Shown one piece after another: positions 45,632-47,781 of a stretch of 64,000 bases of DNA. The DNA comes from Aurantiacibacter sp. D1-12 (lineage in GTDB: Bacteria > Pseudomonadota > Alphaproteobacteria > Sphingomonadales > Sphingomonadaceae). The stretch is taken from positions 558,001-622,000 of the forward strand of contig NZ_JAPJZJ010000001.1 in the NCBI RefSeq assembly GCF_028858515.1, written 5' to 3'. The translations under genes were made by a program, and so were the position numbers. How positions within the stretch are numbered: position 1 is the first letter of the stretch; each line of letters begins with the position of its first letter. The notes below the pieces were generated by a model. The model searched no databases. It was not told the origin of the DNA and saw only the letters and a list, made by a program, of their open reading frames with translations.

Positions 45632-47781
45632 GTGATTTCCTCCTCGAACTGCGCTGCGAAGAAATCCCTGCCCGCATGCAGGCAGGCGCACGGGCGGAGT
45701 TGGAAAAGCTCTTCCGCCGTGAAATGGATGCGAGCGGCGTTGCTGTGGGTGAGCTTACCGTATGGTCCACCCCGCGTCGCTTGGCGCTGATTGCGCGCGA
45801 ATTGCCCGAGGCGACTGAAGCCGTATCCGAAGAAGCTAAAGGCCCACCCGTTGGCGCGCCCGACCAAGCGGTAGACGGGTTCTGCCGCAAGAACGGCGTG
45901 ACGCGCGACGATCTGGAAGTGCGCGATGTGAAGGGCCGGGAGACCTATTTCGCGGTGAAGAACATTCCCGGCCGCGCGATGAGCGATCTGCTCGCCGAAG
46001 CGATCCCCGCCATCATTCGCGACTTCAGCTGGCCCAAGTCGATGCGCTGGGGCGCTGCCTCGCTTTCGACTGAAAGCCTGCGCTGGGTGCGTCCGCTTTC
46101 GGGTATCGTCGCAATGCTGGGTAGCGATGTCGTGAAGTGCGAGGTCGATGAATTTGTCAGCGGTCGCTACACCAAGGGCCATCGCTTCCACAGTCGCGGG
46201 CTGATCGAGATTTCGGATGCCGACACCTACGCCGGAAACCTGCGCGAAGCGAACGTGATCGTCGATCATGAAGAGCGCGCTGCGATTATCCGCAAGGGCG
46301 CAATGAAAGCGGCGGAGGCTGCTGGCCTCAAGCTGGTCGAGGATGAAGGACTTGTCGTCGAGAACGCCGGCCTGACTGAATGGCCCGTGCCGCTGCTCGG
46401 CCGTTTCGATGAAGACTTCCTCGGCGTGCCGCCCGAAGTCATCCAGCTCACCGCGCGCGTGAACCAGAAGTATTTCGTCTGCGAGGACGCGGACGGAAAG
46501 CTCGCCGATGCCTTTATCTGCACCGCCAACATTGAAGCGGTCGATCCGGCCGTGGTGGTGGACGGCAACCGCAAAGTCCTCGCCGCCCGCTTGAGCGATG
46601 CGCGCTTCTTCTGGGAACTCGACAAGAAGACCCCGCTGGAAGAGCACGCGAAGAAGCTCGAGCGGATTACCTTCCACGAGAAGCTGGGCACGGTTGCTGA
46701 CAAAGTTGAGCGCGTGGCGAAGCTTGCGCGGTGGTTGGTTGAAGAGGGAATTGTTGGTTCAAATCCCACTCCCGCAACCAAGTCGTCCGTTCGTCCTGAG
46801 CCTGTCGAAGGGCGAGATGGCGAAGCAGGTCAGGTTCGTACTTCGACAAGCTCAGCACGAACGGTTGAGGAATTGGCCGACCTCGCCGAACAGGCTGCGC
46901 GGCTATGCAAGGCAGACCTCGTCACCGAAATGGTCGGTGAATTCCCCGAATTGCAGGGCCTGATGGGCGGCTACTACGCCCGCGCCGAGGGCCTGCCGGA
47001 CGAAGTCGCCGACGCGATCCGCGATCACTATAAGCCGGTGGGGCAGGGCGATAATGTTCCGACTGCTCCGTTGACGGTGGCAGTGTCGCTGGCGGATAAG
47101 TTGGATACGATGTTCTCGTTCTTCTCGGTCGAGTTGTATCCTACGGGTTCGAAAGACCCGTTCGCCCTTCGAAGGGCGATGCTGGGCATCATCGCGACGG
47201 TGCTTCAATCTAAGCTTCGTGTGCCGATTACGCAGATCGCACGGGCGCACTACGACTTGGCCGATGGTCCGCTCGCTTGGTTCTTGGATTTCTTGGATGA
47301 GCGCCTCAAGGTCCAACAGCGCGAGGCAGGCGTTCGCCACGACCTGATTGACGCAGTCTTCGCGCTCGGCGGGGAGGACGATCTCGTCCGTCTGCTCGCC
47401 CGTGTCCACGCGCTCCAGGCCTTTATCGAAACCGACAACGGCACCAATCTCCTCGCCGGGTACAAGCGTGCGGCCAACATCCTCAAGAAGGAAGAGTGGG
47501 ACGCAAACGCAGAGCTTTCCTACACGCCAGAACCCGCCGAAAAGGCGCTGATCGACGCGCTGGATGTTGCGGAACCGCAGGCGGCCACGGCTATCGAGGC
47601 AGAAGACTTCGCCGCCGCCATGTCCGCTCTCGCCAGCTTGCGTGCGCCGATCGATGCGTTCTTTGAGGAGGTGACGGTCAATGATGACGATGCAAACAAG
47701 CGTAACGCGCGGCTCGACCTGCTTGCACGCTTCCGTGCTGCAGTGCACAATGTCGCCGATTTCTCGAAAATCGAGGGGTGA
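45628..47781 (+). CDS. glyS: Glycyl-tRNA synthetase beta subunit with an in-frame repeat insertion
   Basis: The 717-residue beta subunit binds tRNA-Gly. It begins [18 protein letters not shown] and has the usual [14 protein letters not shown] and [17 protein letters not shown] blocks, ending with an anticodon-binding helical domain. Between KLARWLVEE (about residue 373) and [17 protein letters not shown] (about 415) there are roughly 40 residues not expected in the family (including SNPTPATK and RPEPVEG). They are encoded by a tRNA-like 3' end followed by a palindromic repeat. The frame is kept, so the protein is probably functional. The insertion sits just ahead of a highly conserved helix. 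Confidence 0.95.
46756..46864 (+). repeat. tRNA-3'-end-like sequence plus imperfect palindrome inside glyS
   Basis: 46756-46780 reads GGTTCAAATCC then CACTCCCGCAACCA, like the T-loop, acceptor and CCA of a tRNA (similar to initiator tRNA, which ends CCCGCAACCA). After six bases an inverted repeat begins: left arm 46787-46810 (CCGTTCGTCCTGAGCC then TGTCGAAG) and right arm 46841-46864 (CTTCGACAAGCTCAG then CACGAACGG), 24 nt each with two mismatches. The reading frame runs through the whole element. Reminiscent of in-gene palindromic elements of Rickettsia; relation not established. Confidence 0.75.

Follow-up and report, generated by a model that had tools for sequence, protein, structure and literature searches.

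The glycyl-tRNA synthetase beta subunit gene (glyS) in the window, by which we mean the whole 64-kb stretch of DNA analysed here (G000:C4:558001-622000, from a genome of 2.57 Mb labelled G000), carries an inserted piece of repetitive DNA that leaves the reading frame open, and in many related genomes the same place in the gene holds palindromic repeats of different families. The insert is very probably a REP dimer with a captured tRNA-Met 3' end, lying in a permissive loop of GlyS and tolerated as a disordered extension, and the loop a recurrent landing site whose fillings are gained, replaced or lost. In the course of events that we propose, a head-to-head REP dimer and a tRNA-Met 3' end would have entered a surface loop that joins two helices and lies after about residue 374. 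The tRNA piece may have been helped in by short matches of its variable loop or T-stem to glyS codons. The insert would be translated, adding some 36 disordered residues to the enzyme at nearly no cost. In other members of the family, REPs of different families and several tRNA 3' ends would likewise have been gained, replaced or lost in this loop, much of the filling probably by separate insertions.

The gene has a single match in its own genome, and its identity follows from its top PDB match, 7yse_C, a glycine--tRNA ligase beta subunit (E 2.4e-102). The alignment with this structure covers residues 3-384 and 420-715 of the product as separate blocks, and most of the insert stays unaligned. 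The nearest named matches of glyS are from Erythrobacteraceae-like Sphingomonadales. The first-pass annotation had described two 24-nt inverted arms with two mismatches inside the gene, read through in frame as RPEPVEG and TSTSSARTV, and both the arms (Table 1) and the open frame were confirmed. With a gap of 3-100 allowed, they are the sole pair of such quality in the window, and no comparable pair arose in three mononucleotide shuffles of it. An inverted-repeat search of the window at seed 9 missed the palindrome; at seed 7 it returned arms at 46787-46815 and 46836-46864 that are 86% complementary. The RNA of positions 46780-46870 folds at -49.2 kcal/mol (z -6.31), and 0 of 200 shuffles folded as low. 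The extent originally proposed, 46787-46864, is right for the palindrome; the insert itself begins about 34 nt further left.

Table 1. Parts of glyS and of its insert (positions in the window), and further copies of the window's repeat in the same genome (contig coordinates)
Feature	Position	Strand	Basis
glyS, glycyl-tRNA synthetase beta subunit, 717 aa	45628..47781	+	reading frame, PDB match, genome search
tRNA-Met(CAT) 3' end: T-arm, acceptor strand, CCA	46753..46780	+	27/28 nt identical to G000:C6:188328-188355
Spacer AGTCGT between tRNA end and palindrome	46781..46786	+	read from sequence
Left REP unit (family D), read as RPEPVEG	46787..46810	+	CCGTTCGTCCTGAGCCTGTCGAAG
Stretch joining both REP units, partly paired	46811..46840	+	fold, inverted-repeat search
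Right REP unit, inverted, read as TSTSSART	46841..46864	-	CTTCGACAAGCTCAGCACGAACGG
Right flank, conserved glyS resuming	46865..46905	+	alignment with relatives
Repeat copy	C4:49400		genome search with arms
Repeat copy	C4:206655		genome search with arms
Repeat copy	C4:171239-171344		genome search with arms
Repeat copy	C8:18175-18266		genome search with arms
Repeat copy	C6:~207065-207170		genome search with arms
Repeat copy	C5:175667		genome search with arms

The insert is composite. Its order in glyS is the tRNA end (read as GSNPTPAT), six nucleotides, a REP unit, a loop, the inverted REP unit and then conserved glyS; the left boundary, at about 46753, is uncertain by a few nucleotides, and its GTT also fits a glyS Val codon. 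Between the alignment anchors the protein has 86 residues, against 50 at empty sites of congeners, a gain of 36. When the insert region was searched against its own genome the tRNA match stopped at CCA. The source gene, tRNA-Met(CAT), we take from its sequence to be of the initiator type. A second copy of the tRNA-Met end, 24 nt long, lies at C6:190203, 1.9 kb from the tRNA-Met gene, and shares with the glyS insert an AGT after the CCA, which weakly favours a DNA source over the mature tRNA.

Some further observations were made around these sequences. At C6:188279-190226 (L003, L010, L023), the tRNA-Met(CAT) gene and the 24-nt copy of its 3' end resemble the ends of an integrated element, with one ORF of at least 100 aa, measuring 430 aa, between them. 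On the minus strand of glyS, an antisense ORF at 46266-46781, probably spurious, contains VAGVGFEPT, the peptide that antisense reading of a tRNA T-arm gives, and this can serve as a quick sign of a hidden tRNA end. An Rfam scan of the insert gave nothing beyond a sub-threshold resemblance of 46789-46862 to AaHKsRNA41 (23.6 bits against a cut-off of 97, on both strands), a model that may in part cover repeats of this sort.

The arms are indeed repeated in the genome, as the idea of a small inserted element had supposed, and a genome search located six clear further places (Table 1). Judged from the reading of ORFs, five of these are intergenic or upstream of likely starts and one is in rnpB. 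A seventh match, at C5:381276 within a 560-aa ORF (L014), is weak (E 0.10) and may be due to chance. The unit in rnpB is a single one (G000:C5:175667-175700) inside the RNase P RNA gene (L015 1477-1915, RF00010, 259.6 bits), where its additional bases are accommodated in a helix loop close to the 5' end of that RNA. Several congeners have many matches to the window's repeat, for example at least 25 rows in one genome (G002) and at least 33 in another (G455), tRNA matches included, so that its family is a common one in the genus. The inserts of two other congeners are likewise repeats of their own genomes, with 23 rows in G008 and 102 in G010 at E <= 0.001, counts that include the glyS copy and reverse-strand rows. 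Two imperfect palindromic units of 20-40 nt in inverted orientation make a REP dimer, and the several dispersed, mostly extragenic copies are as expected of a REPIN or BIME. No match to the Y1 (RAYT-type) transposase, PF01797, was obtained in the genome, and one of six relatives had one; as a control the same profile was found in 5 of 14 named genomes, and a very divergent enzyme could be missed.

Relatives show the same site both empty and filled. We searched 18 congeners, of which 16 had a glyS match, and in 10 of these 16 the site is empty, with 49-50 aa between the anchors. Together with the arm copies elsewhere, these insertion-free congeners bear out the proposal that a frame-keeping palindromic element was inserted. 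Counting the window's own genome, 7 of the 17 parsed genomes of the genus are filled, and with several different elements. Our first wider set had 107 parsed loci, with L111 and L054 left out as unparsed and some genomes present twice (the insert of L031 is also that of L057). Because this set is ranked by similarity, an even sample of the family was drawn, comprising 99 genomes from 90 genera, 96 with a glyS match and 89 parsed. The seven matches outside the parser were read by eye: L218 and L232-L235 are without an insert, L230 has a few extra residues and L164 is out of frame. Between the anchors, 37 of the 89 parsed genomes have a region of 71-100 aa, 11 have 57-61 aa and 41 have 47-51 aa. 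Eleven genomes from other families of the order (L043-L053) have 47-57 aa and no long insert, which makes the empty site the older state within this sampling.

The longer inserts of the 107-locus set show several palindrome families at the same codon: A (CGTCATTCCCGCGAAGGCGGGAATCC-like), B (CGTCACCCCGGACTTGATCCGGGG-like), C (CCCTCCCC...GGGGAGGG-like), D (the window's type), E (CCTCCCCGGAACGGGGAGGGGGACC-like) and F (GTGTCGAGCGNAGTCGAGACAC-like). In the even sample five or more families share this one glyS place; labelled by motif and by eye, its 37 long inserts comprise 10 of family C, 9 of A, 7 each of D and E, 2 of F and 2 others. A fold z below -3 was obtained for 33 of the 48 regions of at least 57 aa, 32 of them long (out of 37) and one short (out of 11); not every filling is therefore a clear palindrome (10 of the short and 5 of the long regions did not reach this z), and the short extensions are mostly not palindromes. 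Over 79 loci, we counted 22 strong palindromes in 15.0 kb of the site, 38 in the remaining frame (170 kb) and 77 in the flanks (447 kb), a density at the site about 7 to 9 times that of the other two, in a comparison biased by the choice of the site for its inserts and by a frame that extends back to the previous stop codon. A CGTC target tag, from the glyS codons ATCGTC, was considered and the counts of the two sets disagree: in the 107-locus set the tag precedes the insert in 17 of 39 filled loci and is present at the site in 7 of the 35 empty ones, and in the even sample the figures are 8 of 37 for long inserts and 12 of 40 for empty sites.

Other parts of glyS also bear palindromes in some species. 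A second cluster, not seen in the window's glyS, lies 95-111 residues before the frame end in 12 loci (L087, L103, L104, L106, L107, L114, L115, L119, L125, L131, L134 and L135), and two loci have a strong palindrome near residue 345 of their own glyS. In Sphingomonas parapaucimobilis YK209 (L136, NZ_CP155756.1 23298-29303), the annotation places the glyQ-glyS-ppdK cluster on a replicon of 197 kb that is labelled a plasmid, and this glyS has a long insert at the same place.

In the glyS frame every one of the 37 long inserts is open, compared with 19 and 13 of the 37 in the other two forward frames; this excess points to selection for an open frame, the preservation being partly built in since the parser needs both anchors in one frame. 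Translational bypassing was dropped as an explanation because every long insert is open. One of the 96 genomes (L164, G432:C100) has a collapsed insert region and glyS out of frame, perhaps an assembly error at the hairpin. An AlphaFold2 model from a 32-sequence alignment has a mean pLDDT of 87.8, with residues 380-408 below 50, and helices at 356-372 and 413-426, within blocks above 90, flank the low stretch. The insert is likely a floppy, disordered loop between these two helices in the model.

The tRNA end of the window has counterparts in other lineages. Among the 86 distinct sequences with a region of at least 51 aa, six have a T-arm and CCA at the exact glyS place, and the six ends at the insert start come from five different tRNAs. 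As judged by a search of six genomes, ARAGORN on the matches and reading, they include tRNA-Asn(GTT) in L080, tRNA-Met(CAT) in L069, tRNA-Arg(CCT) in L167 and tRNA-Arg(CCG) in L169, the last a tRNA end alone, without a palindrome; that of L171 is by eye a tRNA-Met with 2 differences in 28, whose gene was found through the L069 fragment. A seventh end, in L087, looks by eye like a decayed tRNA-Met, and its fragment matched only the glyS itself, and no tRNA gene, at E <= 0.01 in its genome. T-arm-like regex matches in L075, L157, L203 and L223 are left out of the count. The tRNA homology starts in the variable loop or the T-stem, at a point where a few bases of glyS match, and stops no more than 3 nt from the CCA end. 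In the genomes searched for tRNA sources, no match runs on into the tRNA genes' own downstream DNA further than about 3 nt after the CCA. Since tRNA 3' ends make up an estimated 0.05% or so of such genomes, random capture looks unlikely.

Among the matches listed from 31 genomes of the genus, none joins the tRNA end and the repeat in one source. Matches listed from nt 1 of the insert stop at nt 28-31 and the others start at nt 24 or later, with one exception that starts at nt 4 and stops at nt 28; a match on the S. parapaucimobilis plasmid seemed to reach the tRNA part and proved on reading to be without a tRNA end. A pattern for the glyS-tRNA junction, too strict for counting the phenomenon, matched in 3 of 396 genomes of the order, namely the window's own and two of another family. 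A bolder reading of these ends is that the glyS site is a trap for fMet, Met, Asn, Arg-CCT and Arg-CCG ends, each running from about the T-stem start to the CCA and caught in separate lineages, that REPs then land beside the CCA, and that a tRNA-end process (tRNA-primed or RNA-templated DNA synthesis, or tRNA-type integrases) feeds both into genes and disperses transposase-less REPs. We regard this as unlikely, and if it were true the missing dispersal route of REPs without a transposase could be explained.

How far the fillings are independent was judged on a quick single-gene GlyS tree (LG+G4, insert left out), in which 19 of 86 inner branches are starred. It requires 28 changes for the presence or absence of a long insert and 23 for family among insert-bearers; when only starred branches are counted, family C still needs 7 changes, A and E need 6 each and D needs 5. 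The genus g66 has one genome with C (L146) and another with A (L150). The labels are as scattered on the tree as shuffled ones (46 changes against a shuffled mean of 45.3), and with a tree weak in places and shuffled-like labels gain, loss and replacement are not distinguishable. Replacement does happen: the inserts of L065 and L075 begin with the first bases of family C (AAGCCCTCTCCC and AAGCCCTCTACC) and continue as D and B. By eye, the flank reads LAD[LQ]AE..AARL in most insert-bearers, and most empty sites are GADPD- or NCDPA-like.

This last pattern and the traces of replacement would both be expected if there had been one ancient insertion followed by turnover, with later elements landing in or converting the earlier repeat, because repeats recombine with repeats. 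Such a history is possible, and we hold it somewhat doubtful: in the genus ten of 16 congeners are empty and the six filled ones hold several different elements, L169 has its tRNA end without any palindrome, and families A, C, D and E each need several changes on the starred branches. That the palindrome is kept for a function, as an mRNA hairpin tuning glyS expression or as a useful loop, seems to us quite improbable. RNA structures do regulate several aminoacyl-tRNA synthetase genes, and strong hairpins are present in 32 of the 37 long inserts, but sequence, peptide and length vary from one lineage to another, the site is empty in 41 of 89 genomes, and in some species other places in glyS bear such repeats. 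Ancestral protein sequence that is palindromic by chance would account for the open frame and for nothing else, and is scarcely credible: the insert's likeness to genomic copies and tRNA genes is at the DNA level, the alignment with 7yse_C skips just this part, and L043-L053 lack a long insert. The insert residues appeared in none of the distant GlyS sequences compared.

The insertion as such is an already known sort of event, and what is new is the recurrent filling of one glyS loop by repeat families and tRNA ends. One place in an essential and widely sequenced gene thereby records repeated insertions of many repeat families. It is a natural assay of how transposase-less REPs move, how often and with what junctions, so that their movement, still unsolved, can be studied, and it shows the amount of new disordered protein that an essential enzyme accepts. 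Among the open-licence papers listed in literature searches, judged by title and abstract, PMC3733652 alone dealt with this subject, and none described a single glyS loop being filled repeatedly or tRNA ends with REPs.

Conserved genes with REP monomers or dimers inserted in frame were described by Di Nocera, De Gregorio and Rocco (2013, PMC3733652), who in the relevant passages name tRNA synthetases of E. lithoralis (their spelling) and S. alaskensis as hosts. The suggestion that the glyS element would newly extend a phenomenon known from Rickettsia did not hold, because these in-frame REPs of sphingomonad synthetases had already been published there; the first-pass annotation was correct in what it observed and is partly supported in its interpretation, which was right in kind and incomplete in content. 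The glyS insert shares this in-frame position with the GTAG and CGTC REPs of that paper. The paper reports different REPs at roughly one position for recB of two Xanthomonas only; the word glycyl is absent from its main text, and tRNA ends from the passages concerned. CGTC REPs are described there as apparently without a dedicated transposase, their movement being left open, and the tRNA ends offer a concrete, testable clue to that mechanism. By its text, a CGTC REP has the CGTC tag, a stem of 8-9 bp starting with A/T pairs, a loop of 4-5 nt and a CCA-like tail. Compared with this description alone, the window's unit, with CGTC followed by CTGAGC, does not seem to fit; the family A inserts of relatives (CGTCATTCCCGCGAAGGCGGGAATCCA) fit by eye and resemble CGTC-1, which the same source equates with RPE-6.

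The insert shares with REP dimers, BIMEs and REPINs its two inverted, imperfect palindromic units and the mostly intergenic position of its other copies; it differs in lying inside a coding region, and in the lack of a Y1 transposase match in its own genome and five of six relatives. Integrative elements usually duplicate a tRNA 3' end up to the CCA. The piece copied into glyS is just such an end, with a second 24-nt copy 1.9 kb from the gene, but at glyS the frame runs on directly on both sides with no element, integrase or paired att copies flanking an element found at the insert, and five tRNAs are represented at one place.

A behavioural parallel is the RPE of Rickettsia (Ogata et al. 2000, 2002, as cited in PMC3733652 and PMC2229807), also an in-frame palindromic repeat in conserved proteins. 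RPEs are reported by Delihas (PMC2229807) in proteins, tmRNA and RNase P RNA, with a guanylate kinase that is active despite its insert, and the window's repeat has a unit in its own rnpB as RPE has in Rickettsia RNase P RNA. The window's repeat has few copies, and several families sharing one place do not figure in the RPE accounts as given in these sources. By analogy, and likened in behaviour rather than claimed as a member of the RPE family, the glyS insert may be said to work as an RPE insertion does.
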